From Marinovum algicola (GTDB taxonomy: Bacteria; Pseudomonadota; Alphaproteobacteria; Rhodobacterales; Rhodobacteraceae), in the NCBI RefSeq assembly GCF_900109145.1, contig NZ_FNYY01000028.1:1-51540 (forward strand): a stretch of 51,540 nt of DNA, written 5' to 3'. Positions within the stretch are counted from its first letter, which is position 1; the number at the start of each line of letters is the position of its first letter. The notes under the pieces are model-generated. The model did not search any database. It saw only the letters and a list, made by a program, of their open reading frames with translations, and was not told the DNA's origin. Position numbers and translations under genes: made by a program. Below are positions 10,405-49,314 of this stretch, in pieces.

Positions 10405-10444
10405 GCAACTGATTAAACCACACTGGCACTTGACAAAAACTCAA
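10405..10444 (-). promoter_or_regulatory. Conserved 40-bp promoter element, site A
   Basis: Starts GCAACTGATTAAACC and ends TTGACAAAAACTCAA. Read toward the minus-strand acyl-CoA synthetase gene, the order is the TTGA/TCAA dyad, then TTTAAT as a -10-like block, then TTGC. Six other copies have identical spacing (29 bases from the first G to the end of TGA). The intergenic region 10300-10834 also holds site D; no gene is seen in it. Confidence 0.75.
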
Positions 10445-10596
10445 GAGCAGATGGCGCTGTTTAAACAAAGATTTAAGGCAAAATGCGGAGTCTCAGTCGG
10501 CAAAAAAAGCGCGCGCCCTGTCACTTTCCGATGTGCAATGGGGGCGTCAGACGGCGTCTGTCGCGCTCCGTCAAGGGATTTCAGGCTGTCACTTCA

Positions 10597-10636
10597 TTGA
10601 CATTTTCTCAAACTTCTATGCTTTTTAATCGTTTGC
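10597..10636 (+). promoter_or_regulatory. Conserved 40-bp promoter element, site D
   Basis: Starts TTGACATTTTCTCAA and ends TTTTTAATCGTTTGC, the reverse orientation of site A. It therefore points to the plus-strand ThDP enzyme gene at 10835, 198 bases away. TTTAAT is at the same -10-like position as in the other copies. Confidence 0.75.
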
Positions 10637-10834
10637 ATGAAGGGCTGCCTTGTTACCAAACTGACCAGACGCCGTGCATGTGAACAAAAAGGGTAAAGCT
10701 CAATGCGAAAGGTTCGTATCGACGAGGTCGGCCAGGAAACAGGGGGCTTGCCCAAAAACGGAACCACGAACAGCAGCAGTGGGTGGCCGGAAAACCCCGC
10801 GCCCCGACCGCAGCCCCAAGACGGAGGTGCCTCG

Positions 10835-12511
10835 ATGTCTGAACGCCTAACCACGAACCAAATTAGCGGCCGCAGCGCGTTCATCTCACTGCTGCGCGAT
10901 GAGGGGGTAACAACCCTGTTCGGCAACCCCGGTACCACAGAGCTGCCGATAATGGACGCGCTGAGCGAGCAGAGCGATATCGGTTACGTTATGGGAATGC
11001 AGGAGGCCATCGTGGTAGCGATGGCCGATGGCTACGCCCGCGCATCGGGTCGGCTCGCGGTCTGCAACGTGCACGTGGCGCCGGGGCTTGGCAACGCCAT
11101 GGGGTCGCTGTTCACCGCGATGCAGGCCGGTTCGCCGTTGCTGATTACCGCCGGTCAGCAGGAACAAGGCCACGGCCTAACCGAACCTTTGCTCTATGCG
11201 CCGCTCGTCCCCATCGCCGAGCCAATGGTAAAGTGGGCCGTAGAGGTCAACCGCATCGAGGATTTGCCACGTGTCATGCGCCGTGCCGCCAAGGTGGCCC
11301 TGACAGAACCCACCGGTCCGGTGTTCATCTCTCTCCCGGGGGACATCCTGAACACCGAGGCGCCGCTTGACCTGGGAGCGGCAACGCGGGTCGACACCAC
11401 CAGCAGGCCAACGGCGGCGGCGGTAGATGCGCTGGCGAACCGGCTGCTGTCAGCACGTGCTCCGGTGATCGTTGCCGGACACGAGGTGGTGGCGAGCGAT
11501 GCCTTCGAGGCCGTCGGCGATTTTGCGACAGCGCTTGGCGCTCCGGCCTACAAGCAGACCGTTGATTCCGGCGCCCATTTCCCCTCGGAGCACCCGGCCT
11601 ACATTGGAACGTTGCCCCGCAATCAGGCCCGGGTGCGCGAGGTGATGAGCGCGCATGATGTCATGATCTGCGTCGGCAGTGATGTGCTGCGCATGTCGGT
11701 CCACAGCGAGGTCGATCCCCTGCCCGAAACCACAGCCGTGATCCAGATCGGACAGCGCGACTGGGAGCTGGGCAAGAACTATCCCGCCGAGATCGCCATT
11801 CGCGCCGACGTACGGGAAACACTGGTCGATCTGGTGGCGGCCTTGCGGCGGATCGGCGGTGAGCAGCATTCGGAGAGAGCCGCTGCAGCCATTGCCGCGC
11901 TGGCCGAGGATAACTGGAGCGCGCGCCGCGCGCGTAGATACGCGACCGCGATGAACAATGCCAAGGTCTCTCCAATGGCGCCGGACTGGCTCATGGCGGC
12001 GATGGTCGATAACCTGCCCGACAACAGCATCGTTGTCGATGAAGGCATTACATCAGCGAGCGCGCTGCTCGATCTTCTGCCGTTCCGCCATCGCTACAGC
12101 TACATCGGTAACATCAGCGGCGGGATCGGCTGGGGCGTGCCGGCGGCAGTTGGGGTCGCGCTGGCCAGGCCCGAGGCGCGGGTCACGGCGATCATTGGCG
12201 ACGGCTCGGCCATGTACAACATCCAGGCTCTGTGGAGCGCCGCTAAGCACAAGCTGCCGATCACCTATGTCATCGCCAACAACGGCGGCTATCGCATCAT
12301 TAAGCAGCGGCTGAAGTCGTTTCACGACAATGATAATTTCATTGGCATGGATTTCGCCGATCCCCCCGTCAACCCAAGCAAGCTGGCCGAGGGCTTAGGT
12401 ATGCGCGCAATTCGCGCCGAGACTCCTGACGCATTTGTTGCCGCCATGCAGGAAGCCACCAAGTCCGACGGCCCGGTTCTGATCGACGCGCTGGTGCAAG
12501 GCCATGTCTGA
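10835..12511 (+). CDS. Benzoylformate-decarboxylase-like ThDP-dependent enzyme
   Basis: A 558-residue thiamine-diphosphate enzyme, starting at ATG 10835 with GGAGG seven bases upstream. The open frame to 10703 adds only low-complexity sequence. The N-terminal domain has FGNPGTTELP and catalytic Glu57 (GMQEAIV), followed by NVHVAPGLGNAMG with His80. The C-terminal domain has the ThDP motif GDGSAMYNIQALW (455-467) and ends in NN (482-483). His80 and His290 plausibly match the two catalytic histidines of benzoylformate decarboxylase, so non-oxidative decarboxylation of a 2-oxo acid to an aldehyde is the best guess. Acetolactate-synthase-like or lyase activity is possible. It stands alone, controlled from promoter element D and divergent from the acyl-CoA synthetase. 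Confidence 0.87.
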   Translation: MSERLTTNQISGRSAFISLLRDEGVTTLFGNPGTTELPIMDALSEQSDIGYVMGMQEAIVVAMADGYARASGRLAVCNVHVAPGLGNAMGSLFTAMQAGSPLLITAGQQEQGHGLTEPLLYAPLVPIAEPMVKWAVEVNRIEDLPRVMRRAAKVALTEPTGPVFISLPGDILNTEAPLDLGAATRVDTTSRPTAAAVDALANRLLSARAPVIVAGHEVVASDAFEAVGDFATALGAPAYKQTVDSGAHFPSEHPAYIGTLPRNQARVREVMSAHDVMICVGSDVLRMSVHSEVDPLPETTAVIQIGQRDWELGKNYPAEIAIRADVRETLVDLVAALRRIGGEQHSERAAAAIAALAEDNWSARRARRYATAMNNAKVSPMAPDWLMAAMVDNLPDNSIVVDEGITSASALLDLLPFRHRYSYIGNISGGIGWGVPAAVGVALARPEARVTAIIGDGSAMYNIQALWSAAKHKLPITYVIANNGGYRIIKQRLKSFHDNDNFIGMDFADPPVNPSKLAEGLGMRAIRAETPDAFVAAMQEATKSDGPVLIDALVQGHV

Positions 12512-12580
12512 CGGTGCGACCGGAAATCTCCGACAGTGTGTTCCGCCTGACCCGCGCCCCTTTTAATACTCACCTAAAGC

Positions 12581-12672
12581 ACAATGCGAATTGCTTGAAA
12601 CATCAGGTCTCCCCTAACGCTTTGAAATCTCTGATTTCAGGCAGCGTTAGGGGATTCAGCTTTTCGCATTGT
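12581..12672. repeat. Nested inverted repeat capable of a 92-nt stem-loop
   Basis: Outer arms ACAATGCGAA (12581-12590) and TTCGCATTGT (12663-12672) enclose CCCCTAACGC (12611-12620) with GCGTTAGGGG (12644-12653), which in turn enclose TGAAATC (12623-12629) with GATTTCA (12633-12639). All arms are perfect. CTAAAGC lies on both sides (12574-12580 and 12676-12682), like an imperfect target duplication. It follows the ThDP gene by 70 bases but has no T-run, so it is not a typical terminator. It may be a small mobile repeat or part of the non-coding end of the adjacent IS110-like remnant. Confidence 0.6.
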
Positions 12673-13176: not shown

Positions 13177-13998
13177 TCAAAGGTCGGCAGCGTCGCAGAA
13201 CGATACCGTCACGGATCCGAGCCCGCAGAACCCGGCAGTCACCGTCTGACCCGGTTCGACCGGAAGCAGGGCGGTGCAGGCGCCAGTGAAAACAAGGTCC
13301 CCGGCGCGCAGACCGCGACTTCGCAGCCTCGGGTGCTGGGTTAGCCAGGCAACCGCGTCGAGGATGTCGTCCCACAAGAGCGCGTCAACGCTGCCCTCCG
13401 CCACCTTCCTGCCGTCAACGGACAGTTCGACACCCAGCCCGCGAAGCTGCGCAAACGGAATGGCGCAGCGGCCGAAAACAACATCCGCGTTGCCTCCTCC
13501 GTCCGCGACGATCAGAAACGGGCTCGTTTGCGGTTTGCTGTATCGGGATCCCACGATCTCGATAGCTGGCAACGCCGCCTCGACGGCATCGCGGACCGCT
13601 TCTCGTCCCCCCGCGGCCATTTTGGCGTCGATGTCGGCGCCGACCCGCAACGCGATCTCGGCTTCCAGCTTCGGGCGATGGGACATGTGGAGAGGCACGC
13701 AAGCCCCGTCACCATGGCACTTCGAGCCATAGACAGGTCCGATGAGCGGCTCGTTTAGGCCGTAGGACACCAGTTTTTCCGCACTTGTCACCCCGATCTT
13801 CCAGCCAGCGATGTCAGCTCCATGTAGCGCGATCTGCGCTGACTGGATGTCATAAGCCCGGTCCAGGGCGGTCAGCGTCGCGAGCCTGCTTTGGTCGAAG
13901 TGACCGCCTGTCTCGCGCGCCTCGTACAGGTCGGAAGCGATCATCTTGGTTGCGCTATATCCTGAACTTTCCATTTCTGTTTCATTCTCCGCCGACAT
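13177..13998 (-). CDS. 2-keto-4-pentenoate hydratase / oxalocrotonate decarboxylase family protein
   Basis: About 273 residues from ATG 13998; starts at 13974 or 13944 are also possible, since none has a clear Shine-Dalgarno sequence. The protein shows the MhpD/FAH-superfamily pattern: GWKIGVTS, then EPLIGPVYG, the metal-binding LEAEIALRVG stretch, PAIEIVGSRY, and near the end AGDLVFTGACTALLPVEPG. Members hydrate 2-hydroxy-2,4-dienoates or decarboxylate 4-oxalocrotonate in meta-cleavage pathways. No ring-cleavage dioxygenase is seen in the window, so it may act on another 2-oxo acid. It lies downstream of the SDR gene on the same strand, separated by a hairpin, and may be co-transcribed with it. 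Confidence 0.82.
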   Translation of the reverse strand: MSAENETEMESSGYSATKMIASDLYEARETGGHFDQSRLATLTALDRAYDIQSAQIALHGADIAGWKIGVTSAEKLVSYGLNEPLIGPVYGSKCHGDGACVPLHMSHRPKLEAEIALRVGADIDAKMAAGGREAVRDAVEAALPAIEIVGSRYSKPQTSPFLIVADGGGNADVVFGRCAIPFAQLRGLGVELSVDGRKVAEGSVDALLWDDILDAVAWLTQHPRLRSRGLRAGDLVFTGACTALLPVEPGQTVTAGFCGLGSVTVSFCDAADL

Positions 13999-14008
13999 TG
14001 ACAAATCG

Positions 14009-14028
14009 CCGCTTGCCTTAGCAAGCGG
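14009..14028. repeat. Perfect 8-bp intercistronic hairpin
   Basis: CCGCTTGC (14009-14016), CTTA loop, GCAAGCGG (14021-14028), between the SDR stop and the hydratase start on the minus strand. There is no T-run, so it more likely stabilises or attenuates the message than terminates it. Confidence 0.45.
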
Positions 14029-14047
14029 ATCGAGGCCGCACAGCGGC

Positions 14048-14968
14048 TTAGACTGGGTCCCAGCTGAACACGTCCCCCGACACTGTAAGCGGCATGTAAT
14101 CCGGCTTTAGCGCGGGAATTGCGTGTTGTGCCACGCTATCGAAGTCCCAGCCTTCGCCGCGATGCGCGGAACGCAGCGGGCGTGGCTGGGACATCAGGAA
14201 TATCTCGTTATTGCGCACTGCAAATACTTGGCCTGTCGTGTCGGCGCCCTCGTTCGAGGCCAGAAACATCGCCAAGGGTGCGATCTTCTCGGGCCGCATC
14301 TCTTTCATGCGATTGACACGCGCCTCCTGTTCTGGGCTGTCGACCTTGATCGACGAGGTCATGCGGCTCCAGGCGAAGGGGGCAATGCAGTTCGAGCGGA
14401 TGTTCCATCGCTGTAGGTCAAGCGCCATGGATTTTGACAGCGCCGTGATGCCGAGCTTGGCCGCGGAATAGTTGGCCTGAGCGAGGTTGCCGATCAGCCC
14501 CGAGGTCGACGTCATGTGGATCAGGCTTCCCGTTCCTTGCTCGCGCATCACATCGGCGGCGGCGCGGCTCACGTTGAACGTGCCGTAGAGGTGTACTTTC
14601 ACGACCGCGTCGAAATCCTGATACGACATCTTGTGGAAGAAACCGTCGCGCAGGATGCCCGCGTTATTTACTACGGCGTCGAGCCGCCCGTAGGTGTCCG
14701 TTGCCTGGCGTACCATCGTACTGGCGCCGTCCGGGTCCGAGACATCATCGCCATTGGCGACCGCGCGGCCGCCGATTTTCTCGATCTCGGCTACGACGTC
14801 CTGCGCTGCTGCGCTGGACTCTCGTCGGCCGTCGAGCGAGGCGCCGATGTCGTTGATGACGACGGCGGCCCCGGCTTTGGCGGCCTCTATGGCGATGGCA
14901 CGGCCGATGCCACCACCGGCACCGGTTACCAGTATGACCTTGTCGTCTAGGGGTTTATTGTCAGACAT
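14048..14968 (-). CDS. SDR 3-hydroxyacyl-CoA dehydrogenase-like protein (MFE-2 type)
   Basis: A 306-residue short-chain dehydrogenase. It has the NAD(P) motif TGAGGGIG (15-22), the NDIGASLDG segment (39-47) typical of peroxisomal multifunctional-enzyme-2 dehydrogenase domains, NNAG (101-104), and Ser154-Tyr167-Lys171 as catalytic residues (YSAAK). About 45 extra residues follow the core (SQPRPLRSAHRGEGW... to FSWDPV). The MFE-2 resemblance suggests oxidation of (R)-3-hydroxyacyl-CoA, which fits the MFE-2-type MaoC hydratase encoded at 20721. It is divergent from the acyl-CoA dehydrogenase operon, with the IclR gene between. A different alcohol substrate cannot be excluded. Confidence 0.85.
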   Translation of the reverse strand: MSDNKPLDDKVILVTGAGGGIGRAIAIEAAKAGAAVVINDIGASLDGRRESSAAAQDVVAEIEKIGGRAVANGDDVSDPDGASTMVRQATDTYGRLDAVVNNAGILRDGFFHKMSYQDFDAVVKVHLYGTFNVSRAAADVMREQGTGSLIHMTSTSGLIGNLAQANYSAAKLGITALSKSMALDLQRWNIRSNCIAPFAWSRMTSSIKVDSPEQEARVNRMKEMRPEKIAPLAMFLASNEGADTTGQVFAVRNNEIFLMSQPRPLRSAHRGEGWDFDSVAQHAIPALKPDYMPLTVSGDVFSWDPV

Positions 14969-15006
14969 GGGTTCTCTGCCTTTTCCTTAATATTTGCGGA
15001 ACATGT

Positions 15007-15783
15007 TCAATCTTTTGAGGTGCGGCCGAAGACACCGCGCTCGATTTGCCGGGCGGCATCGGCCAGTGCGGCACCGACCTGGTCAAGGCTTTCGTCGGTC
15101 TGCTGGCCCGTGATCGTGATACTACTCATTCCGAGCCGTGGCACGTGGGTTGCATCGAGCGCCATGGCCGCGACGATGTCGAGCCCGCGGAACAGGTTGC
15201 CAGGGTCCTTTGCCGTGCCACTCTCCCGGGCGGCCTGAACGTCCTGCCAGTAGGTGTCGAAACCCGGCGCATTCTGCCAGCGAACGTTTTCATACCCGGC
15301 ACGGGTTTGGGCCTCGGTCAGTTCAAGTGCCGCGGCATAGACCCGCCCGATGGCGCCCGCGAAAACCGGCAGGCGGCTGCTGCGCGCCATGACGGCCTGC
15401 ACGATATTAGGGGCGCTGAAGCGGTCGATCAGCACAATGCGTTCATTGGCGGTGATTTGCCAAAGCGCGACGGCCACCCGGTGCTCTTGCGCGATGGCCG
15501 TCAGGGTGGGTCGGATCAGGTCGCTCGGATTGGCACCCAGAAGCGGCGCGGCGAACTCCATAAGCCCCATGCCGATTGTGTAGGTCTTGGCCTCAGGATC
15601 GAAGCTCAGTAGGCCCCCGTGGTTCAGTGTACGCAAAATGTTGAATGCCGACGAGACATTTAACCCGGTCTCGCGGGCGATTTGCGTCGCGCCCATCGGC
15701 GCTCCGGCAGCAGAAAGCAACCGCATGATGGTCATTGCGTTCTGGACCGCAGGCACCAATTTCTGTCCGTCTTGGCTGCTCAT
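15007..15783 (-). CDS. IclR-family transcriptional regulator
   Basis: A 258-residue regulator. The winged helix-turn-helix covers about residues 12-65 (MGATQIARETGLNVSSAFNILRTL region), followed by the IclR effector-binding domain with the usual FSAPNIVQAV, LPVFAGAIGRVYAA and GLDIVAAMAL segments. IclR proteins sense small aromatic or aliphatic acids and often control the adjacent operon. It is transcribed divergently from the acyl-CoA dehydrogenase gene at 15872 and shares an 88-base promoter region with repeats. It is therefore the probable local regulator of 15872-21581 and perhaps of the SDR/hydratase pair downstream. Confidence 0.9.
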   Translation of the reverse strand: MSSQDGQKLVPAVQNAMTIMRLLSAAGAPMGATQIARETGLNVSSAFNILRTLNHGGLLSFDPEAKTYTIGMGLMEFAAPLLGANPSDLIRPTLTAIAQEHRVAVALWQITANERIVLIDRFSAPNIVQAVMARSSRLPVFAGAIGRVYAAALELTEAQTRAGYENVRWQNAPGFDTYWQDVQAARESGTAKDPGNLFRGLDIVAAMALDATHVPRLGMSSITITGQQTDESLDQVGAALADAARQIERGVFGRTSKD

Positions 15784-15871
15784 ATCATATCCTATACAGA
15801 ATGGTATTTACCCTACAGAAAAATTTTGGTAGTGCAATAGGAGACGATAGGCAGCCTGAGGGAGAAATGAG
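15784..15871. promoter_or_regulatory. Divergent IclR / acyl-CoA dehydrogenase promoter region with repeats
   Basis: Contains ATAC-AGAATG-GTAT (15792-15805 region) and, about 20 bases on, CTAC-N12-GTAG, both beginning with the shared TACAGAA and both inverted at their ends. Such repeats between an IclR gene and its divergent operon are likely regulator sites. This assignment is by position only. Confidence 0.4.
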
Positions 15872-17038
15872 ATGGCGTCAGGAGTGGATGGTGAGGTTTT
15901 CGAACAGCTTGTCTCGACGGTCGACCGGTTTGCCCGCGAACGCCTGATTCCGGCTGAGCGCCGGGTCGAGGAAGAGGACAACATCCCCGACGAGATTGTG
16001 GCCGAGATGAAGGAGATGGGGCTGTTCGGCCTGTCGACGCCCGAGGAATTCGGCGGAATCGGTCTTAACGTGCCGCAGGAGGCGCGGCTGATCGAGGCGT
16101 TGTGCTATGCTTCGCTGACTTTCCGGTCGCTGATCGGCACCAACGTGGGTATCGGCTCGCAAGGAATCGTCATGGACGGGACGCCTGCGCAAAAGGAACA
16201 ATGGCTGCCGGGCGTTGCGAGCGGTGACGTGATTGCGGCCTTCGCGCTGACCGAACCCGACAATGGATCAGACGCCGGCGGCATCCGCACCTCCGCCCGT
16301 AAGGACGGCAGCGATTTCCTCATCAATGGGACCAAGCGTTTCATCACCAACGCGGTCCGCGCAGAGCTGTTCACCGTCTTTGCGCGAACAGATCCGAACG
16401 AGCCGGGTGCCGGCGGCGTGTCGGCCTTCATCGTGCCAGCCAATACGCCGGGCATCACCGTTGCCAAGCCGGACAGCAAGCTCGGACAGCGCGGCACCAA
16501 GACCTCCGACGTGATCTTCGAAGACGTGCGGGTCCCCGAGAGCGCAATCATCGGTGGACCTGTCAATCTGAACTGCGGATTTCGTACAGCGATGCGCGTG
16601 TTGGACCGGGGCCGCATTCATGTTGGTGCCATGGCCGTCGGCCAGAGCCAGCGCATGCTCGACATCGCGACAGACTATGCATTGACGCGCAAGCAATTCG
16701 GCAAGCCGATTGGCGAGCACCAACTGGTGCAGGGGCTTCTGGCGGATTGTCAGGCCGAGCTACATGCCGCGAGGGCGCTTGTCCGAGCTTCGGCGGACAC
16801 GTTCGATCGTGAAGGAAAGGCCATCATCGAGGCGTCCTGCACCAAGTATTTTTGCACGGAGGCCGCGGGCCGCATAGCGGACCGGGCGCTGCAAATCCAC
16901 GGCGGCGCCGGGTACATGACGGAGTATGATATCGAGCGTCTCTACCGCGATATCCGACTGCTGCGCATCTACGAAGGCACCAGCCAGATCCAGCAACTGG
17001 TCATTGCCCGCCGCACGTTGACGCAACGGGCCGATTGA
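15872..17038 (+). CDS. Acyl-CoA dehydrogenase (MCAD-type catalytic glutamate)
   Basis: A 388-residue FAD enzyme of standard length. ATG 15872 follows GGGAG. The helical N-domain is followed by FALTEPDNGSDAGG and GTKRFITNA (FAD/substrate site) and the C-terminal helical domain with ALQIHGGAGYMTEYDIERLYRD. Glu368 in IYEGTSQIQ is the catalytic base of the medium-chain type. It introduces the 2,3-double bond in an acyl-CoA and passes electrons to ETF, which may be the etfBA pair at 49377. First gene of a compact operon (dehydrogenase, DUF35 protein, thiolase-like, acyl-CoA synthetase, MaoC hydratase). Chain-length preference is not readable. Confidence 0.92.
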   Translation: MASGVDGEVFEQLVSTVDRFARERLIPAERRVEEEDNIPDEIVAEMKEMGLFGLSTPEEFGGIGLNVPQEARLIEALCYASLTFRSLIGTNVGIGSQGIVMDGTPAQKEQWLPGVASGDVIAAFALTEPDNGSDAGGIRTSARKDGSDFLINGTKRFITNAVRAELFTVFARTDPNEPGAGGVSAFIVPANTPGITVAKPDSKLGQRGTKTSDVIFEDVRVPESAIIGGPVNLNCGFRTAMRVLDRGRIHVGAMAVGQSQRMLDIATDYALTRKQFGKPIGEHQLVQGLLADCQAELHAARALVRASADTFDREGKAIIEASCTKYFCTEAAGRIADRALQIHGGAGYMTEYDIERLYRDIRLLRIYEGTSQIQQLVIARRTLTQRAD

Positions 17039-17085
17039 CCAGAAGCCGAACCGGGAAGATCAAAACTAGGAGACGATTGGCAGAA

Positions 17086-17466
17086 ATGACAGATACCGAA
17101 AAATCCCGCCTTGGACCGCAAGCCGCCTACGAGGCGTTTCTTGCCGAAGGCCGTTTCATGATACAGCGCGCCGCAAGCACCGGCGAGTACCTTTTCTGGC
17201 CGAAGGTCACCTCTCCTAGCGGCGCAACTGATCTGGAGTGGGTGGAAGCCCGCGGTACGGGGACGATCTATGCCATTACCGTTAACCGCGCCCGCAAAGG
17301 GGCGCGCAACGTGGCTCTTGTCGATCTCGATGAAGGCGTGCGCATGATGTCCACTCTGCCCGACGTAGAAACCGCGGAGATCGGCGCGCCAGTGAAAGCA
17401 CGTATCGAAATGACCGCGAATGGACCGCGCGTGGTCTTTGATCTGGCAAAGGAGGCGTCCGCATGA
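17086..17466 (+). CDS. DUF35 OB-fold acyl-CoA-associated protein lacking its zinc ribbon
   Basis: A 126-residue protein; ATG 17086 follows AGGAGAC. The open frame to 17035 is an extension overlapping the previous gene. It contains the family signature TDLEWVEARGTGTIYAITVNR at about residues 48-68, where the zinc ribbon hands over to the OB fold. Normal members have two CxxC pairs before this point; this protein has no cysteine at all, and the ribbon region reads GEYLFWPKVTSPSG. DUF35 proteins act as partners of thiolase-like aldolases or MaoC hydratases, and the next gene, overlapping by 4 bases, encodes a thiolase-like protein. It is probably a structural subunit of that enzyme. Confidence 0.83.
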   Translation: MTDTEKSRLGPQAAYEAFLAEGRFMIQRAASTGEYLFWPKVTSPSGATDLEWVEARGTGTIYAITVNRARKGARNVALVDLDEGVRMMSTLPDVETAEIGAPVKARIEMTANGPRVVFDLAKEASA

Positions 17467-18617
17467 CCCGGGACAACATCAGAGGCAAATCCGCCATTGT
17501 CGGCATGGCAACCGCCGGGGTCGGCGAGGCGCCGGGCTTTTCCGCGATCGAGCTGATCGGTCAGTCCGCAGTCAAAGCCGTGCATGATGCCGGTCTGAAA
17601 CTGCAGGACATTGACGGCGTCTTTGCGGCCACGTCCAACCATGCCTATCCGACCATGAGCGTGGTCGAATACCTCGGCCTCCGACCACGTTTCTTCGACG
17701 GCACCAATGTCGGCGGGTCCAGCTTTGAGATGCATCTCTTGCAGGCAACGCTTGCGCTCGAGGCGGGTCTCTGCGACGCGGCGCTCGTCTGCTACGGGTC
17801 AAACCAGCGCACTGCGGGCGGAGGGCTGGTGTCGATGAGCGAGCCGCAATGGCACGAGACCCCCTATAAACCGCGCCACCCGATCACCGCCTATGCGCTG
17901 GCCGCGAGCCGGCACATGGCCGAGTTCGGCACCGCCCGCGAGGACTTGGCCGAAGTGGCACTGGCCGCGCGCGGCTGGGCCAACCTGAACCCCGAAGCCT
18001 TCGCGCGTGGCCCGCTGTCCAAGGACGACGTCCTTTCGGCGCGGATGATCTCAGACCCGCTGAGCAAGGCCGATTGCTGCCTCGTCACCGACGGTGCGGC
18101 AGCCTGTGTGTTGGTGCGCGCCGACCGTGCCCGGGACTTGCCTGGCAAACCGGTCTATTTCCTCGGCGGCGGTGGCGCCAACTATCACCGGTCGATCGTC
18201 GCCATGCCAGACCTTACCACCACCGCAGCAGCCGAAAGCGGACCGCGGGCGATGGAGATGGCGGGCGTCGGGCATGACGAGCTGGATTTGTTGATGCTTT
18301 ACGACGCCTTCACCATCACAACGATCCTGTTCCTCGAAGACCTCGGGTTCTGCCCCAAGGGCGAAGGTGGGCGGTTCGTTCGCGACGGGCGCATCGCGCC
18401 GGGCGGCGAGTTGGCGGTGAATACCAACGGCGGCGGACTATCTTGTGTGCACCCCGGAATGTACGGCTTGTTTCTAATCGCCGAGGCGGTGGCGCAAATC
18501 CGAGGCGAGGCCGGTGCGCGCCAGCAGGAGGAGTGCAACCTCGCGCTTTGCCACGGCAACGGCGGGACATTGTCCAGCCAATGCACAGTGGTGCTGGGGT
18601 CGGAGGCGGCGCTATGA
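17463..18617 (+). CDS. Thiolase-like protein lacking the nucleophilic cysteine (possible retro-aldolase)
   Basis: A 384-residue thiolase-superfamily protein of the SCP-x/lipid-transfer type. The usual N-terminal nucleophile motif (NxxCxS) is replaced by TNVGGSS (81-87), with no cysteine. The C-terminal part retains LYDAFTI (Tyr280), GGGLSCVHPGMYG (His330, Tyr334) and LCHGNGG. In the steroid side-chain aldolase Ltp2, which works with a DUF35 partner, tyrosines replace the cysteine chemistry; Tyr280 and Tyr334 sit where I would expect the equivalents. It could therefore cleave a 3-hydroxyacyl-CoA by retro-aldol reaction instead of thiolysis. Start and stop overlap the DUF35 and acyl-CoA synthetase genes by 4 bases each. 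A degenerate but thiolytic enzyme remains possible. Confidence 0.82.
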   Translation: MTRDNIRGKSAIVGMATAGVGEAPGFSAIELIGQSAVKAVHDAGLKLQDIDGVFAATSNHAYPTMSVVEYLGLRPRFFDGTNVGGSSFEMHLLQATLALEAGLCDAALVCYGSNQRTAGGGLVSMSEPQWHETPYKPRHPITAYALAASRHMAEFGTAREDLAEVALAARGWANLNPEAFARGPLSKDDVLSARMISDPLSKADCCLVTDGAAACVLVRADRARDLPGKPVYFLGGGGANYHRSIVAMPDLTTTAAAESGPRAMEMAGVGHDELDLLMLYDAFTITTILFLEDLGFCPKGEGGRFVRDGRIAPGGELAVNTNGGGLSCVHPGMYGLFLIAEAVAQIRGEAGARQQEECNLALCHGNGGTLSSQCTVVLGSEAAL

Positions 18618-32209: not shown

Positions 32210-32246
32210 AGCGTGCTCCACCGGCTACACAGCATCGTCAGAGAAA

Positions 32247-32278: not shown

Positions 32279-32293
32279 CAATACATTATCAGG

Positions 32294-33286
32294 TCAATTC
32301 TCTGGCTGGTTCTCTTCGTGGGCGTCGGTCCAAAGGCCCACTTCCTTGTAGAATTTGATGGCACCCGGATGATAGGGGACCGACGGATTTACGAGAGCCA
32401 GTTCGTTCTGTGCAATTCCACGCAGCGTCCCGATATCATTCTGCAAGCTACCCCAGTTGTCGTAGAGCGACTTGGTGATCGCGTAAACGTCATCTTCCGA
32501 AATCGCTTCGTTGGTGATCAGCATCGTATCGTACGAGACGATCTCCGTCTCGCCGATGATGAAAGGGTGCTTTTCACTAGGCAACGCTGTGCCTATTGTG
32601 ACGCCAGAGATCTCTTTGGCAAAAAATTCGTCGCTAGCCTCGCTACCATTGCCGATAATCCGAAGCCCACCCGGAACCGAGGCCTGCAATTCGGTCAGTA
32701 CCGGCATTGCGGTGGAGGCGGGCGCCGCGTCGGCGCGGCCTTCGACAACAGCGTTGATGCCGTCCATCAATCCGCCGCTTGTCATGAAGTTCACGTCGTC
32801 AAGCTCCAAGCCGCCGGATTTGACCATGGCTTGATTTATCATGGTCGCCGCTTGCGAGGCGGGCATGTCGCCCATGACGCGTTTGCCGCGCAGGTCGTCC
32901 GCTGTGATGATGCCGGACTCCGCTTTGGTGATAAACGCATAAGGAATATTCCAGACGCGCGCGATGCTGCGAAGCCCGGTCATAGGCTGTGGAAAGTCTC
33001 CTTTGCCTTCGTAGGCAACACCCGATTCAACGGTGGACGCCAATCCCAGTGTGATATCCCCGACGCTTATCGAGGGGAGATAGACCGACGCCCCGGTGAA
33101 AGGCTGCGCGGTCGATCGGATACCGAGTTCTTCCTGAAAAACCTTCGCGAAGCCGCTACCGATCAGATAGAAGGTCGACCCCGAAGGGTTTGTGCCGATG
33201 GTAATGTTCTTCAGCTCCGCCAGTGCCGAATGGCCGTTTCCTAATACCATGAATGCCGCAGTGGCGGCAATTTGCCAAATTTTCAA
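32294..33286 (-). CDS. TAXI-family TRAP substrate-binding protein, system 1
   Basis: A 330-residue periplasmic binding protein. The start is TTG 33286, preceded by GGAGGA at ideal spacing; it gives a short signal peptide (KIWQIAATAAFMVLGNGHSALAE). The longer open frame to 33412 is not protein-like. TAXI features are ITIGTNPSGSTFYLIGSGFAKVFQEE at the mature N-terminus, the central LRGKRVMGD segment and the C-terminal VPYHPGAIKFYKEVGLW, found in nearly all members. It captures the substrate for the permease encoded next. A partial match to the 40-bp element (33337-33356) lies upstream but lacks the dyad. Confidence 0.9.
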   Translation of the reverse strand: MKIWQIAATAAFMVLGNGHSALAELKNITIGTNPSGSTFYLIGSGFAKVFQEELGIRSTAQPFTGASVYLPSISVGDITLGLASTVESGVAYEGKGDFPQPMTGLRSIARVWNIPYAFITKAESGIITADDLRGKRVMGDMPASQAATMINQAMVKSGGLELDDVNFMTSGGLMDGINAVVEGRADAAPASTAMPVLTELQASVPGGLRIIGNGSEASDEFFAKEISGVTIGTALPSEKHPFIIGETEIVSYDTMLITNEAISEDDVYAITKSLYDNWGSLQNDIGTLRGIAQNELALVNPSVPYHPGAIKFYKEVGLWTDAHEENQPEN

Positions 33287-33481
33287 TTTTGTTCCTCCGT
33301 GGATTGATTTGGCATCACATAAATGAACTCGTTCCACAAAACGGATTAAAGAGCATCTTAAACCTCGGATGGTCCGAATAAATAAACGCAATGCGGGTAT
33401 ACCCTTGGGCATAAAAACAGAATGCCTTAGGCTTAATTGTATTACATTTTTCTTCGCTGTTTTGCTTCCGTCCGAATGGCC

Positions 33482-34273
33482 TTAATAAACGACCACGGGA
33501 CTGGACCCGCCGTCGACGGCAATTGTCTGCCCGGTCACCGCAGATGCATGAGCGGAGGCCAGGAAAAGCACCATCGGAGCAATGTCGGCAGGTTCCACGA
33601 GACGCCCGATAGGGAAGTCCGCGATAAAAGACGCCTCGGCCTCTTCCATAGAGATTCCCCGCTCCTTCGCGCGCGCTTCAAGCCGCGCCGGGTATCTGTC
33701 GGATTTGGTGAAAGGCGGATGGACCACATTCACGGTGATGCCGTCGGGTGCGACATCGGCGCTGAAGTTCTTGGCAAAGTTCGCCAACGCGGAATTGCCT
33801 AGTCCCTGAGGAAGGGCTTCCCGGTGCGCGACGCGGGCCGAGGTACCCCCGATGCAGATCACACGCCCGCGCCCGGACCGGCGCAAATGCGGCAAGGCCG
33901 CGCGTGCAAGCCGCATGGACGCCAATGTCTTGCCCATAAACCTCTCGACAAGCTTTTCGTCTGTGAGTTCTTCCAGTCGCCCGCCCACGTTTGTCGACGC
34001 GTTGTTGACGAGCACATCGAGGGCACCAAAGCGTTCCTCCACGCTCGCGATGGCGTGCTCACAGCCGTCAGCGGTGAAGAGGTCGGCCTCCACCGTCCAA
34101 GACGTGCCTCCGCACTCTTCGATGGCGCGGCCGGCGGAGGCGAGCGCCTCGCGGTCCCGACCGCAGATCGCCACTCTTGCACCTTCGCTCGCAAAGCCCA
34201 GCGCGATGGCCAAGCCGATGCCGCGGTTCCCTCCGGTCACAAGGACCGTTCGGTCTTTTAGATCGAGATCGAT
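33482..34273 (-). CDS. SDR-family protein with apparent ATC start and no YxxxK motif
   Basis: A 263-residue short-chain dehydrogenase-like protein. The expected N-terminus (x-DLDLKDRTVLVTGGNRGIG) is present, but its first codon is ATC (34273-34271), placed 7 bases after AGGAGG. No ATG, GTG or TTG lies between it and an upstream TAA; the next usual start, GTG 34240, would remove the first beta strand. The cofactor motif TGGNRGIG and NNAS are present. At the active site, QGLGNSALANFAK stands where YxxxK would be, so the catalytic tyrosine and lysine are missing. It may be a non-classical SDR or an inactive relative. It lies 70 bases after the aldolase gene, probably in one operon. Confidence 0.75.
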   Translation of the reverse strand: MDLDLKDRTVLVTGGNRGIGLAIALGFASEGARVAICGRDREALASAGRAIEECGGTSWTVEADLFTADGCEHAIASVEERFGALDVLVNNASTNVGGRLEELTDEKLVERFMGKTLASMRLARAALPHLRRSGRGRVICIGGTSARVAHREALPQGLGNSALANFAKNFSADVAPDGITVNVVHPPFTKSDRYPARLEARAKERGISMEEAEASFIADFPIGRLVEPADIAPMVLFLASAHASAVTGQTIAVDGGSSPVVVY

Positions 34274-34343
34274 GGCTAATCCTCCTCTTCCTTACGCTGC
34301 AGGTCTCTGGGCACTGCAGGGTGATGGTTCCCCGATCCTCGGA

Positions 34344-35129
34344 TCACTGCATCCAGTCCCTGCCCTGCGCGCGTTCAAGCTTGCGCAGCATTGCCTGCCA
34401 TTCGGTCTCGCGGCTGCTGCCAAAACTATCCCGCTCAAAAATGGCGCGCGATTGCTCCATCACAAGCTGTTGGATGTCTTCGTTGATGGGCTGGATCTCT
34501 TGTCCGGTGCTGAGAATGGCCATCTGGTAGGAACAAGCCGATTCCATGCGTGCCATCCACAAAAAGGCCTCGCCGACAGTACGGCCCACCGACATCAGCC
34601 CGTGGCTTCGCAGCACCAGCACACGACTGTCGCCCAGATCGCGTACGATGCGTTCGCGTTCCTCCAGATTCACCGCGATGGATTCGTAATCGTGGTAAGC
34701 CACGAATGGTAGCATCGTCAGGGCCTTCTGGTTGTTCGGCAGAAGGCCGTCACGCATGCAAGCCACGGCATTGCCGGCGCGCGTGTGCGTGTGCATGACT
34801 GCGTTCATGTGCTGCGCGGACATGTGTACAGCTGAATGGATGGTGAAACCCGCCGGGTTGATCGGGTAGTCCGAACGGTCCAGCACGTTACCTTCTTCGT
34901 CGACCTTGATGAGCGACGAGGCGGTGATTTCCTCGAACAACATGCCGTAAGGGTTCAACAGGAAATGGTCAGTCCCCGGTACCCGTAGCGAGATATGCGT
35001 GCCGAACAGGTCCGACCAGCCATACATGTCGGTCAGGCGGTAGCAGGCCGCAAGATCGCAGCGCGCCTGCCATTCCTCGGGACTCATGTGATCGGGAGTG
35101 GTATCGGGATCTGCAACGATTTTTAACAT
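34344..35129 (-). CDS. Class II aldolase/adducin family protein
   Basis: A 261-residue protein of the fuculose-aldolase/adducin fold. It shows FGTHISLRVPG and FLLNPYGMLFEEIT near the N-terminus. The zinc-binding pair His113-His115 (MHTHTRAG) follows, and a third histidine lies in LVLRSHGLMSVG. Members are metal-dependent aldolases, epimerases or decarboxylases acting on hydroxy acids and sugar phosphates; several hydroxy-acid-acting members sit beside transporters. The promoter element C is 145 bases upstream, pointing at this gene, and the SDR gene follows. The reaction is not determined by the sequence alone. Confidence 0.87.
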   Translation of the reverse strand: MLKIVADPDTTPDHMSPEEWQARCDLAACYRLTDMYGWSDLFGTHISLRVPGTDHFLLNPYGMLFEEITASSLIKVDEEGNVLDRSDYPINPAGFTIHSAVHMSAQHMNAVMHTHTRAGNAVACMRDGLLPNNQKALTMLPFVAYHDYESIAVNLEERERIVRDLGDSRVLVLRSHGLMSVGRTVGEAFLWMARMESACSYQMAILSTGQEIQPINEDIQQLVMEQSRAIFERDSFGSSRETEWQAMLRKLERAQGRDWMQ

Positions 35130-35274
35130 TCAAGTCTCCTCCTGCCTGTACGCACTCAGTCTCCGTCGACCGGTTGACCGGATCCCCATGCCGCGTTTGA
35201 CGTAGGCATGGAAAGTGGCCTTTGGTTGCAACGGGTTGCGTGATTAAAACTGTGCCCGAAAGCCCTGCTGACAA

Positions 35275-35314
35275 GCAAACGATTATAACGCATGGTTCCT
35301 TGATAAAAACTCAA
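35275..35314 (-). promoter_or_regulatory. Conserved 40-bp promoter element, site C
   Basis: Starts GCAAACGATTATAACGCAT and ends TTGATAAAAACTCAA. On the minus strand it contains a perfect TATAAT at the -10-like position. It points to the aldolase/SDR operon. It lies just after the end of the preceding TRAP operon (stop at 35347). Confidence 0.78.
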
Positions 35315-35346: not shown

Positions 35347-37353
35347 TCATTGAGGAAGGTCGTCACCCCGCAAGCGACCCATAGACGAGCACCGCGCGTG
35401 GGCCATAAAGACGGCCGGAGCCGCCAGTGCAGCTCCGATCAGGGCTGTATCCAGGTGAGTCAGCCCGAGCGTCGCCAGCCCGGGAACAGCCACAAGGAAC
35501 CCGCCCACAATCAGCAGACCCCGGCCCGCGGCGGCCCACAGCCCCTTGCCCAGTGGGCCGAACCCAACGACGTAGCCGCGAAAGCCGGAGGCCATCAGCC
35601 AGATGCCCACTAAGGCACTGGCAAGCGCCACGAATACTTCCGAGATGCTGCCCTGACCGACCAGTGCCGGGTCCAGCACAAAGAAGAACGGAATGATGTA
35701 GATCACCGCACCCAGACGCATGGATTCGACACCAACTTCAAAGGGCCGCGCGCGCGCCAGCGTCGCAGCCGAAAATGCGCCGAGGGCAACCGGCGGCGTA
35801 ATGAAGCTGACCATGCCCCAGTAGAGAATGAAGAGATGCACGACGATGCGTTCGAGCCCCGTTGCCTCTAAGGCGGGTGCAAGGACCACAGCAAGGAAAA
35901 CATAGCACGCAGTCACGGTCATCCCCATGCCGAAGACAAAGGCGGTAACCGCCCCCATGAGCAACAAGGCAACCTTGGAATTCCCGGCAATGAAGACGAG
36001 ATCGTTGACCAACGTACCCGCCAGTCCGGTCGCCGCAAAAGCGCCGACGATCAGGCCGATGCCCATAAGTATGGCGGTCAGCTCGGCTAATGCGGCGCCA
36101 ACGTTCCACGCCAGCTTGCACAGTCCGGCAAAGTCGAGTCTGCTTTGCGGTAAGAGCTGGTTCAAAAAAAGCATCAACGCAGTTGCGAAATAGGGCGCGC
36201 GCGTTTCGGCCCGCAAACCGATCATCATCCAGATCAGCAACCCGAAGACCAGGATGTAGGTCCAGCCACCGCGCAGAGTTGCGCCTAGTCGCGGCAATTC
36301 CTCGCGCGGCAAACCGCGGAGCCCCTTGCCCGCAGCATAGGCGTCGATCTGCATGAAAAGGCCGAAGTAGAACAAAAGCGAAGGGATGGCTGCGGCCAGC
36401 GCCACCTCGGCGTAGGGCATTCCCAGGAACGAGGCCATGACAAAAGCGGTGGCACCCATGATCGGCGGCATAAGCACGCCACCGGTCGACGCGCAGGCCT
36501 CCGTTGCTGCGGCGGTCTTTGCCGAGAAGCCGCTGCGCTTCATTGCCGGGATCGAAGCCGCTCCGGTCGACAACACGTTAGAGATCACCGAACCCGCCAG
36601 CGACCCCATGAAGCCACTGGCAAAGATTGCTACCTTGGCGGCTCCGCCCCGAAAGTGCCCGACCAGAGAAAAGGCAAGATCGTTGAAAAACTGGCCGCCG
36701 CCGGTTCTTGAAAGAACCGCGCCGAACAGCACAAAGCCAACCACCAGCTTTCCGAAGCTTTTCATTGGGATACCAAAAACGCTTTCCGACGATATCAGGT
36801 GATAGGCCATCGTGTCGAATAGCGGCTGTTGAAACCCATTGAGCGGACCGGGAAAATGGCTGGCCGCCGTGGGGTAAAGTGAGACCGAGCAAACGATTGC
36901 CGCAAGGGTTATGCCGCCCGCGCGTCTCGTTGCCTCGATAATCAACGCCCAGAAGATCACAGATGCAAATTGCACCGATCGCGGCGCCGCATATTCCCAG
37001 CCTTCGTTCAGAGACCGTTCCGAGCTGGCTGCGAAAAACAGGCAAAGTGCCAGCGATAGCACCATCAATCCCCAGTCCACCGCGCGCGCCCGGGAGCCCA
37101 ACGCGCCACTCTCGAAAACCAGAAAGGACAAAGAGAAGAAGGCCGCGGCCAAAAGATAGAGGTACTGACCTTCCAGAATGGTGATCCCGAAGGCCCGCAG
37201 CTGAAAAACTTGATTCAAGGACAGCCCGACCCCAAGGAGTGTACCGGCAGCGACGAGCAGAAGGCGGAGCGGGCTGCTCGGCATCCGCTCCTCCGTTGTG
37301 GCCGAAAACATCTCCGCCGGTTCATTCGTGAAGGTTCCCACGACCATCTTCAA
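35347..37353 (-). CDS. TRAP transporter fused permease, system 2
   Basis: A 668-residue membrane protein with the same DctQ-DctM fusion as system 1. Conserved DctM-type segments include TEACASTGGVLMPPIMGATAFVMA and FGMGMTVTACYVFLAVVLAPALEA, and the C-terminal HLFILYWGMVSFITPPVALGAF. The start overlaps the stop of its binding-protein gene as ATGA. Here no intercistronic hairpin separates the two genes, unlike system 1. It imports an unknown, probably carboxylate, substrate. Confidence 0.92.
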   Translation of the reverse strand: MKMVVGTFTNEPAEMFSATTEERMPSSPLRLLLVAAGTLLGVGLSLNQVFQLRAFGITILEGQYLYLLAAAFFSLSFLVFESGALGSRARAVDWGLMVLSLALCLFFAASSERSLNEGWEYAAPRSVQFASVIFWALIIEATRRAGGITLAAIVCSVSLYPTAASHFPGPLNGFQQPLFDTMAYHLISSESVFGIPMKSFGKLVVGFVLFGAVLSRTGGGQFFNDLAFSLVGHFRGGAAKVAIFASGFMGSLAGSVISNVLSTGAASIPAMKRSGFSAKTAAATEACASTGGVLMPPIMGATAFVMASFLGMPYAEVALAAAIPSLLFYFGLFMQIDAYAAGKGLRGLPREELPRLGATLRGGWTYILVFGLLIWMMIGLRAETRAPYFATALMLFLNQLLPQSRLDFAGLCKLAWNVGAALAELTAILMGIGLIVGAFAATGLAGTLVNDLVFIAGNSKVALLLMGAVTAFVFGMGMTVTACYVFLAVVLAPALEATGLERIVVHLFILYWGMVSFITPPVALGAFSAATLARARPFEVGVESMRLGAVIYIIPFFFVLDPALVGQGSISEVFVALASALVGIWLMASGFRGYVVGFGPLGKGLWAAAGRGLLIVGGFLVAVPGLATLGLTHLDTALIGAALAAPAVFMAHARCSSMGRLRGDDLPQ

Positions 37354-38513
37354 AAGACCGGCTGGAAGCCACCGCTGACCAGCGCCTCGCGGCGCTTCGT
37401 GGCCCAGGCGCTCTGCCAGTCTTCTGGGGACTCAGCCTTCAATTCCTTCCAGGCTGCGGACAACGTGTTCTGCCGGGCGATCATTTTTTCATTGTGCGCC
37501 TGTGCCGCATCGGACCAGACACCGATTTCCTTGAAGTAGCGGATCGCGCCTGCGTGGAACGGGACCAACCATTCCATGTCCTGCGCCTCGATGCTCCAGC
37601 CATCCGCTGCCGGAGCGGCATCTTTATAAGCATCAAAGGTTTCAACCATGGCGCGGGTCTGCTGGTAGACGAGATCCTCGTCCTGCACGTCCATCGCGAT
37701 CAGGACGGGATAGGGGTAGCCGACAGTGGACAGCCCGTTTTCTTCTGAAAGCCCAGCGCCTTGAGTGGCCGTCATCGGTGCGAAATAGGGGGCGATTTCC
37801 TGTAACCGAGCCATGCCTTCAGCATTGTTGGCGTCAACCGTGGGCCAGAACAGGCCGCGAGGCCCTGCTTCGACTTCATAAGCAGCCCCCGCCGTGGTGG
37901 CGGAATAGGCCGCGTCCACGGTGCCATCCACCAGCGCGCGATAGCTGTCAGCGATGCCGCCGAACTCGACCGCGGTGACATCATTCCAGGTCAACCCGCC
38001 GTATGCCAAGAGCGCCGATGTGGCGACGTTGAGGGCCGGTGAGCCCTTGACCCAAGACACTTCGAGTCCACGAAGATCGCCATAAGTGAAGCCATCGCAA
38101 TCGGGCTTGCCAACCTTTTCGCAGGTGTCCCGCGTTGTGGCGAGCGCAAAACCGAATTTGGAACCCGCATTCTGCAACAGGACGCGCACTTTCTGCGGCC
38201 CCCAGTTTTCGTCACTGAAAGCAAAGACACCTTCCTGCGCCATATAGACGCCTCCGATCCCGGCGGCCGCGAAATCAACCTTTCCCTGACGAAGCGGAAC
38301 GGCGCGGGCGATGTCGTTCTTGCCGGCAAGCATGCGCAGGTTTGTGCCATAGGCATTCTTCAGTGCAGCGCCGATAGCGACCGCCTGGCTGTGACCGCTG
38401 GAGCCGACGCCATAGGTCGACCAAGAGATCTGGCCCGGCAGGTTGAGCTCTTCAGCATGACTCATTCCAGCCAGCAGCGAGATGCCCGCTGCGATGATCA
38501 GGGTTCTTGACAT
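37350..38513 (-). CDS. TAXI-family TRAP substrate-binding protein, system 2
   Basis: A 387-residue exported protein, somewhat longer than usual for TAXI proteins. The signal peptide is MSRTLIIAAGISLLAGMSHA. The mature part starts with ISWSTYGVGSSGHSQAVAIGAALKN, the TAXI N-terminal pattern, and has VPFHAGAIRYFKEIGVW near the C-terminus. Cysteines at DTCEKVGKPDCDG may form a disulfide. It delivers substrate to the permease whose gene overlaps downstream. The promoter element H is 182 bases upstream, pointing at this gene. Confidence 0.9.
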   Translation of the reverse strand: MSRTLIIAAGISLLAGMSHAEELNLPGQISWSTYGVGSSGHSQAVAIGAALKNAYGTNLRMLAGKNDIARAVPLRQGKVDFAAAGIGGVYMAQEGVFAFSDENWGPQKVRVLLQNAGSKFGFALATTRDTCEKVGKPDCDGFTYGDLRGLEVSWVKGSPALNVATSALLAYGGLTWNDVTAVEFGGIADSYRALVDGTVDAAYSATTAGAAYEVEAGPRGLFWPTVDANNAEGMARLQEIAPYFAPMTATQGAGLSEENGLSTVGYPYPVLIAMDVQDEDLVYQQTRAMVETFDAYKDAAPAADGWSIEAQDMEWLVPFHAGAIRYFKEIGVWSDAAQAHNEKMIARQNTLSAAWKELKAESPEDWQSAWATKRREALVSGGFQPVF

Positions 38514-38695
38514 GAATTCCTCCCAAACGTCAAATTGCGGCTGCCCGTCCTCTCGGCGGCCAGTTTTTTTGTCTCACACGCGCGCCGCTGGTCTTCCAAG
38601 TCGTTGAAAAAGGTGATAATATTGCAAGAGGCCCCGGCGGCGCCCGGAATGAGCATTCGTTCACTTTCCAATTTGGGTGGAACGCCGTTCATCGC

Positions 38696-38735
38696 GCAAC
38701 CGACTTATTCACATTGAAAGCTGAGAAAAACTCAA
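38696..38735 (-). promoter_or_regulatory. Conserved 40-bp promoter element, site H
   Basis: Starts GCAACCGACTTATTCACAT and ends TGAGAAAAACTCAA. It lies between the TAXI-2 operon on the minus strand, at which it points, and the divergent LysR gene starting at 38775. Its dyad is 40 bases from the LysR start, as expected for an autoregulated LysR gene. Confidence 0.75.
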
Positions 38736-38774
38736 ATAGCCTCGCCACAGCTCAACTACCAAGGTCCCCCCACA

Positions 38775-39740
38775 ATGAGGAACGCGCTTCCCCCCTTAAA
38801 CGCGCTGCGCAGCTTTGTGGAAGCTGCCAATGCCAGGAGCATCTCGAAGGCAGCGGAAGCGCTCTACGTCACGCCCGGTGCAGTCAGCCGCCTGGTCCAG
38901 AAGCTCGAGGATTACTTTGGCACGGCTCTGTTTGTCCGAACGCCCAATGGGCTGGAACTCACCGAACATGGCAAGACATACCTGCGAGACATAGCCGGGC
39001 CCTACGCGGCGCTTGGCGATGCGACGCGCAGGATGCAGAGGCGTGCCGTCGGCAATCGCCTGATCGTCACCTGCCATCCAACCTTTGCGGCGCGTTGGCT
39101 GCTGCCGCGGTGGAACAACTTTTCCCGTCAGCGCCCGGATATCGAGGTGCAGATCGTAACCACGTTGAAGGAACTGGACTTTTACCATCACGACACCGAC
39201 CTTGCGATCGTCCTAGGGCCAGACGTCGACGCCTACACCCTCGGTCCCGGCATCGTCGGTGAAAAGCTGTTGGAATTAGAGATGTTTCCGATCTGCTCGC
39301 CAAAGCTGTTTGCCGATATGTTTGCCGGTCAGGGCGAACCGTCCGAATGGAAGGTGCCGCTCGACGTGCTCAAGACCCATACATTGATCCATACCGATCC
39401 GACGCCGCACGAATGGCAATACTGGCTCGATGCTTACTACAATGCCAGCCGCGACCCCGAATTGAAGGCGGCGATCAAGTCGGTCGATGTCAGTCACGGG
39501 CCGGTGTTCGCCACCGCGGATCTGGCCATCCTCGCCGCGCTCGAAGGGATTGGCCTGTCAACCAGTATCGGCGCCTTTGTCGAGCAAGATCTGGCCAATG
39601 GCCGGTTGATGAAGCCTTTCGAATTCTCCCGCAAGGCGACAAGATTCTATCATATTCTGTGCCGCGAAGAGCGCTACGAAGACGAGAACATCGCACTTTA
39701 CCGCGACTGGCTGCTCAGAGAAGCGGGCATCATTCCCTAG
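38775..39740 (+). CDS. LysR-family regulator, GcvA-like (candidate regulator of the 40-bp element)
   Basis: A 321-residue LysR protein. The winged helix-turn-helix at residues 5-65 opens LPPLNALRSFVEAANARSISKAAEALYVTPGAVSRLVQKLE, the pattern of the GcvA/AmpR subgroup. The effector domain follows with ARWLLPRW and DLAIVLG segments. The gene is flanked by two copies of the 40-bp element: H upstream, G 38 bases after its stop. The dyad TTGAG-N5-CTCAA in the element has the T-N11-A form bound by LysR proteins. On this basis it is the best candidate to control the regulon. The effector might be one of the imported acids. Confidence 0.9.
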   Translation: MRNALPPLNALRSFVEAANARSISKAAEALYVTPGAVSRLVQKLEDYFGTALFVRTPNGLELTEHGKTYLRDIAGPYAALGDATRRMQRRAVGNRLIVTCHPTFAARWLLPRWNNFSRQRPDIEVQIVTTLKELDFYHHDTDLAIVLGPDVDAYTLGPGIVGEKLLELEMFPICSPKLFADMFAGQGEPSEWKVPLDVLKTHTLIHTDPTPHEWQYWLDAYYNASRDPELKAAIKSVDVSHGPVFATADLAILAALEGIGLSTSIGAFVEQDLANGRLMKPFEFSRKATRFYHILCREERYEDENIALYRDWLLREAGIIP

Positions 39741-39777
39741 CGCCAGACAGCGCGAGCGAGGCCGGGCTTTTCCATAT

Positions 39778-39817
39778 TTGAGTTTTTCTCAATGGTGACT
39801 GCGAATTACTCGTTTGA
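39778..39817 (+). promoter_or_regulatory. Conserved 40-bp promoter element, site G
   Basis: Starts TTGAGTTTTTCTCAA (a perfect TTGAG-N5-CTCAA dyad) and ends AATTACTCGTTTGA. It points to the plus-strand cupin gene 67 bases away and hence to the cupin/TAXI-3/TRAP-3 operon. Confidence 0.75.
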
Positions 39818-49306: not shown

Positions 49307-49314
49307 GCGGTCCG

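Follow-up and report, generated by a model that had tools for sequence, protein, structure and literature searches.

The nod box, the target of the LysR family protein NodD, is a long conserved LysR box that is repeated before several operons of one region. The recognition sites of LysR-type transcriptional regulators (LTTRs) often lie at about -65, with an activation site in the promoter, and their general box is T-N11-A (PMC8407307); the GcvA repeats of E. coli are given as 15-bp sequences of the form ATTAG-n5-CTAAT at -65 and -43 (PMC5002191). Here we analyze a 40-bp promoter element that occurs seven times in a 51,540-base stretch of Marinovum algicola DNA, the entire contig C49 (NZ_FNYY01000028.1), called the window below. 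A preliminary description of this DNA had proposed that the element marks a single regulon. Its uniqueness in the genome, its promoter geometry and a comparative tie to a LysR type encoded between two of the sites all support this proposal, and we consider it very likely that the seven elements are operators of one LTTR, the GcvA-like protein encoded at 38775-39740.

The seven sites reported previously were all recovered, five on the minus strand (copy 1, 10405-10444; copy 3, 26090-26129; copy 4, 29102-29141; copy 5, 35275-35314; copy 6, 38696-38735) and two on the plus strand (copy 2, 10597-10636; copy 7, 39778-39817). They align without gaps over 40 bases and 19 of the 40 columns are invariant (T1 T2 G3 A4, T7-T10, T12 C13 A14, T23 G24, A31, T33 C34 and T37 T38 G39). 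Read towards the gene, the consensus of all seven is TTGAGTTTTTnTCAA-N6-ATGCGnTTTAATCGTTTGC. The spacing of 29 noted earlier, from the first G to the end of TGA, holds in every copy, although this first base is a G in only six of them and a T in the copy at 39778; the free bases in the middle, given as about eight, are indeed there but number six (columns 16-21). The orientation relative to the genes is likewise consistent in 7/7 copies, with all of the genes on the GCAAAC side, whereas the element as originally written runs against transcription. The distances from the element to a plausible start codon are 62, 64, 66, 67, 105, 145 and 182 bases, in agreement with the range of 60-200 first quoted. 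Copies 3 and 7 overlap the longest open reading frames of their own genes, and better-placed start codons lie downstream of both.

The set of sites is sharply delimited. A weight matrix built from them, as the preliminary description had suggested, scores the seven at 50.7-56.5 bits, while the eighth-best position of the window reaches 7.6. A site left out of the matrix still scored 40.1-50.1 bits; of the 103,002 positions, six ranked above it each time, presumably the six training sites. The top score in first-order simulated windows was 22.6 (200 runs) or 27.8 (30 earlier runs). A scan of the whole genome (5,396,756 bases in 62 contigs) with a sequence-only model, in which 150 of 181 first-look candidates were scored, gave seven matches, all within the window, and reported no other at E <= 10. 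Against 60 relatives, the full 40-bp model gave just six matches, all of them partial and weak (E 0.0125-0.073) and confined to five class-level genomes; we take these as chance.

Columns 1-15 of the element form the dyad TTGAG-N5-CTCAA, which ranks first among 145 offsets by mean dyad score (8.6 of 14 positions) and contains the LTTR motif T-N11-A as T2-N11-A14 in 7/7 copies. The second-best of the 145 offsets is a weaker dyad in columns 23-37 (mean 7.4 of 14); the TG at columns 23-24 is found at the same distance in only 6/27 related promoters and 1/37 of the pattern loci described below. Columns 22-36, with half-sites T23G24 and T33C34, were considered as the activation site and dropped, since columns 23-37 score better as a dyad. 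The invariant T37-T38-G39 would open a -35 hexamer (columns 37-42), which is TTGATC in one copy and TTGCnn in the other six. Past this putative -35, at 18 bp in six copies and at 19 bp in the seventh, lies a CAnAnT-like hexamer whose positions 2, 4 and 6 are A, A and T, the 18-bp spacer having been picked by inspection and not by a blind test. The candidate -10 boxes are CATACT (10379-10384) for copy 1, CAAACT (10657-10662) for copy 2, AATACT (26063-26068, spacer 19) for copy 3, GACAGT (29076-29081) for copy 4, CACAGT (35249-35254) for copy 5, CAAATT (38670-38675) for copy 6 and CAGACT (39838-39843) for copy 7. A sequence TTTAAT inside the element looks like a -10 in several copies; it was rejected because by eye there is no -35 at 16-18 bp upstream, and because the hexamer 18 bp after TTGCnn has the A/A/T signature in 6/7 copies. 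Counted from the putative -35 and -10 boxes, and hence from predicted start sites, the first dyad would be centered at about -65, where LTTR recognition sites are often found, and the second at about -43. These predicted positions match the layouts of PMC8407307 and of E. coli GcvA, and the full form of the element, for which the preliminary description had named no regulator family, can be read as a LysR-type recognition site, a second site and a -35 box.

The same geometry bears on the sign of the regulation. LysR proteins can repress, and repression often involves the recognition site (PMC8407307); the LysR protein might thus keep the seven units off until an inducer releases them. We judge this unlikely. 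A dyad centered about 65 bp upstream of the predicted start, with conservation that ends at the -35 box, is the layout of an activator, and the -10 boxes are weak, with 3-4 of 6 consensus bases.

The proposed regulator, encoded on the plus strand at 38775-39740, is a GcvA-like LTTR of 321 amino acids with the Pfam domains HTH_1 and LysR_substrate and the recognition helix TPGAVSR. Its gene (lysR) is flanked by copies 6 and 7, one on either side. Copy 6 lies between lysR and the divergent TAXI-TRAP 2 genes, an arrangement expected of an LTTR and its target, and copy 7 lies 37 bases past the lysR stop codon. The protein is not GcvA proper: it scores 233.5 bits against the corresponding NCBIfam model (NF008352), below the cut-off of 288, and its operators and targets differ from those of GcvA proper, the arms being TTGAG-n5-CTCAA and not ATTAG-n5-CTAAT and the genes catabolic and transport genes, not those of glycine cleavage. 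Its sole solved relative at E <= 1e-10 is a GcvA chain (8y6u). The closest homologue found stands at 46% (locus L026, genome G233). When public genomes were screened for near relatives of this protein, none of 77 pattern stretches was confirmed, and the LysR homologues in the plasmid collection were all under 60%, the best among the 20 matches listed at about 36%.

The tie between this protein and the element comes from the promoters of its homologues. We compared 20 closer loci (11 from one homologue search and 9 from a second, leaving out two better-placed second matches, in G037 and G043, and four matches of the second search) with middle and distant homologues, each a run of 20 consecutive rows of the first search. 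Of the closer homologues, 17/20 have the exact heptamer TCGTTTG, at the -35 end, in the divergent promoter of lysR; of the middle ones 10/20 have it, and of the distant ones 0/20. Three of the closer loci, all from one genus, have TTGA-N7-TCAA directly upstream of lysR, and one of these has an exact TTGAGTTTTTCTCAA followed, after 18 bp, by TCGTTTG on the divergent strand. The lysR promoter of L026 reads, by eye, ATGAG-N5-CTCAA, 17 bp, TCGTTTGC. Applied to 20 homologue loci, the 40-bp model gave one partial match, the exact dyad of L031 (one and the same locus as L066); in six homologue genomes, its four matches were all weak and included this dyad. In 27 related promoters with TCGTTTG, base 2 of the -10 hexamer at the 18-bp spacing is an A in 27/27.

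A different recurrent dyad, roughly CAGTTAAGTA..CTTAACTG, was seen upstream of GcvA-like LysR genes in six loci (L108, L112, L113, L116, L118 and L126); it is accompanied by TCGTTTG, as before, and by a -10 resembling CATAT, and is a neighboring operator class. In the genome of the window itself, a LysR gene on contig C56 near 169716 (L153), whose product has the helix TQSAVSQ, also has an upstream TCGTTTG, so that the -35-end motif is not limited to the candidate.

The association was also recovered starting from DNA only. The pattern TTGAS-W5-STCAA-N16-18-TCGTTTG, searched across 84,980 species, each represented by one genome, yielded 72 stretches. At 37 of these, a homologue of the window LysR starts divergently within 150 bp, compared to 0.53 for random placement in the same loci, and at six others the site comes after a LysR gene on the same strand, the arrangement of copy 7 (1.04 at random). 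The 37 loci include representatives of Pseudomonas, Mesorhizobium, Magnetospirillum, Azospirillum, Duganella, Variovorax, Paraburkholderia and Primorskyibacter; the dyad and TCGTTTG are 17 bp apart in 20 of them, as in the window, 18 bp apart in 16 and 16 bp apart in one. A looser form of the dyad occurs in one to three copies in each of 15 of the 72 genomes examined and in four copies in the window (three by the strict pattern); the window is rich in copies, in a comparison that undercounts on both sides. Seven Cupriavidus loci (L044, L063, L069, L071, L082, L099 and L100) have the dyad, 18 bp and TCGTTTG with no clear divergent LysR gene, or after a same-strand one.

The LysR proteins beside the operator are also marked in their recognition helices. 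Counting the divergent LysR only, G35-A36 is present in 37/37, together with R39 in 28/37, compared to 3/15 and 0/15, respectively, of the homologues with other upstream sequences, five homologues having been put in the TTGAG group beforehand. The association (Fisher 3e-7, or 3e-6 with L027 moved to the other group) is overstated by these p-values, because related sequences are not independent. Among the 33 LysR matches of the M. algicola genome, 30 of which were fetched and aligned, some loosely, the GA..R helix is found once, in the candidate, and in 0 of the other 29.

These counts speak against another protein acting at the same operators, for which the choices would be a second LysR (44396-45310), an IclR protein (15007-15783) or a LysR encoded elsewhere in the genome, which has 33 LysR matches. 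The first two are DNA-binding proteins of adjoining gene clusters. No copy of the element is present in the gaps before either of their genes, however, and the helix of the second LysR reads AQPALSL. We consider another binding protein unlikely.

Several observations weigh against the assignment of the element to the GcvA-like LysR and have to be set beside this evidence. In G233, which encodes the closest LysR found (46%), the 40-bp model has no match at E <= 10. Exact TCGTTTG is present in only 4/7 window copies; copy 6, in the lysR gap, reads TCGGTTG, and by the exact criterion applied to the homologues the lysR of the window would therefore not count. In the 27 related promoters, base 6 of the hexamer at the 18-bp spacing is a T in 0/27, with a T one base earlier in 23, and the -10 of related promoters therefore differs in form from that of the window; in the 37 pattern loci, A2 is found in 17/37 and T6 in 24/37. 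An H or K replaces R39 in 9/37 of the LysRs beside the operator, and L026 and L027, the latter degenerate, had been put in the TTGAG group by eye before the 0/15 count was made. Lastly, at 29/72 pattern loci none of the positions tested contains a LysR homologue; a number of these, in Clostridia or Bacteroidetes, may be chance matches.

Two further explanations were considered. Conservation over 40 bp at fixed distances, overlapping the -35 box, is what the core promoter of an alternative sigma factor could look like, but the element has a 15-bp dyad at its left end, no further copy was reported in the genome, and related promoters retain the right end while the left dyad varies together with the LysR helix, making this very improbable. 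Several similar copies in one plasmid region might also be what is left of a repeat that was duplicated or mobile; this is hardly credible, given that the 60 bases upstream have no shared sequence, that the 60 downstream share only the -10 region and that 7/7 copies face a gene at promoter distance.

Judged by sequence, the GcvA-like LysR would govern one regulon of seven units, including three TAXI-TRAP transporters and catabolic enzymes. LTTR tetramers bind 50-60 bp of DNA, and inducer shifts their binding. We propose that a LysR tetramer anchors on the first dyad (columns 1-15, about -65) and that inducer binding would alter its contact with the second site (columns 23-37, about -43) beside the -35 box. 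LysR would then recruit RNA polymerase and turn on all seven units together. Because copy 6 lies in the divergent gap between TAXI-TRAP 2 and lysR, it may also let the protein control its own gene. The inducer would probably be either the compound that is taken up or a catabolic intermediate derived from it.

The extents of the seven units were predicted from strand and spacing. Copy 1 faces an acyl-CoA synthetase gene of the ADP-forming type (8194-10299, minus strand) and copy 2 that of a thiamine diphosphate (ThDP)-dependent enzyme (10703-12511, plus strand), for which the best NCBIfam model is benzoylformate decarboxylase, at 421.5 bits, below the cut-off of 493. Copies 3 to 6 all face minus-strand genes. 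The putative operon of copy 3 encodes an AidB-like acyl-CoA dehydrogenase, an aldehyde dehydrogenase and an AbrB-family protein (21595-26025), and that of copy 4 a 2Fe-2S subunit and a molybdenum hydroxylase (26341-29039). Copy 5 would drive genes for a class II aldolase, a short-chain dehydrogenase/reductase (SDR), the TAXI binding protein and DctM-type permease of TAXI-TRAP 1, and a 2-hydroxyacid dehydrogenase (29287-35129), and copy 6 those for the TAXI binding protein and DctM-type permease of TAXI-TRAP 2 (35347-38513). On the plus strand, the predicted operon of copy 7 (39885-43677) encodes a cupin-like protein together with the TAXI binding protein and DctM-type permease of TAXI-TRAP 3; the earlier label of cupin stands only loosely here, the best Pfam match being PCO_ADO at 24.4 bits, below its cut-off of 27. 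A decarboxylase-like ThDP enzyme, an aldehyde dehydrogenase, a CoA ligase and three acid transporters would together point to an organic oxo- or hydroxy-acid, perhaps an aromatic one, as growth substrate.

The catabolic region adjoins conjugation and type IV secretion genes (about 305-8084; VirB-like, with two lytic transglycosylases) that are 88-90% identical to those of plasmids of Phaeobacter, Salipiger, Dinoroseobacter and others (12 of 146 matches listed), from which the window is probably part of a conjugative plasmid of the Roseobacter group. Among the records listed from a near-identity plasmid search, the best span 27-28% of the window's first half, through the conjugation genes (same 12 of 146), and 10% of its second half (45.4-48 kb; 12 of 77 listed). 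The matches at about 45.4-48 kb, at 76-81%, are to plasmids of Paracoccus, Actibacterium and others, and no plasmid record among the matches listed is close to the catabolic region over its full length. Two neighboring clusters stand apart from the seven units. The first (13177-21581) is a second catabolic island, with genes for a fumarylacetoacetate hydrolase-like protein, an SDR, the IclR regulator, an acyl-CoA dehydrogenase, a ChsH2-like protein, a thiolase, a CoA ligase and a MaoC protein. In the other (44396-51064), the second LysR gene is divergent from an operon, starting at 45425, for an acyl-CoA dehydrogenase, a CoA-transferase, an HpcH-HpaI lyase and an electron transfer flavoprotein. 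No copy of the element was found in the island, in the operon from 45425 or in the promoter gap of the second LysR, and both clusters would be controlled separately.

On a broader scale, the balance of the comparative data inclines us towards a widespread subgroup of GcvA-like LysR proteins, in Alpha-, Beta- and Gammaproteobacteria, with a common promoter plan in which TCGTTTG is constant at the -35 end and the sequence of the recognition dyad would follow the recognition helix (GA.., mostly with R39, going with TTGAG-N5-CTCAA). In the window, this plan would have spread to seven units, forming a nod-box-like catabolic regulon that could be moved as a whole. A link between helix residues and operator arms, combined with the common TCGTTTG, would allow operators to be assigned to many unstudied LysR proteins. 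For the window itself, an anonymous catabolic and transport stretch becomes one testable circuit, with a named regulator, seven targets and three transporters that would answer to the same compound.

In the literature searched, which was limited to text (figures and logos being invisible) and missed most subscription journals, the dyad was not found in any of six literal forms. LysR was not found together with TCGTTTG as a whole word; together with ATCGTTTG it returned only papers unrelated by title, and LysR-type together with TAXI-TRAP only a transposon study. The terms GcvA, cryo-EM and 'transcription activation complex' were not found in combination, although a solved GcvA chain (8y6u) exists. 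The kind of switch is known, namely an LTTR operator-promoter of the GcvA-like type, whereas this particular regulon seems to be a new set.

The likeness to the nod box is one of layout only; the sequence, the regulator and the genes are all different. With the general LTTR box and the sites of BsrA, the element shares a T-N11-A recognition site, often found near -65, and has a putative activation site in the promoter; BsrA sites are, however, described there as numerous and little conserved, while the window set is small and nearly uniform (PMC8407307). VtlR of Agrobacterium is likewise an alphaproteobacterial LTTR with a 15-bp box before a few targets, but these include small RNAs and a small-protein gene, and the likeness drawn here is one of description (PMC7486931). 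GcvA is the nearest named regulator subfamily by sequence, and the E. coli gcvA-gcvB gap likewise has a 15-bp dyad with 5-bp arms and a 5-bp center, sites at about -65 and -43, the positions predicted for the window, and a divergent regulator gene (PMC5002191). The window differs from it in its TTGAG/CTCAA arms, in a weaker second dyad that ends in the -35 box, and in seven copies that face catabolic and transport genes.

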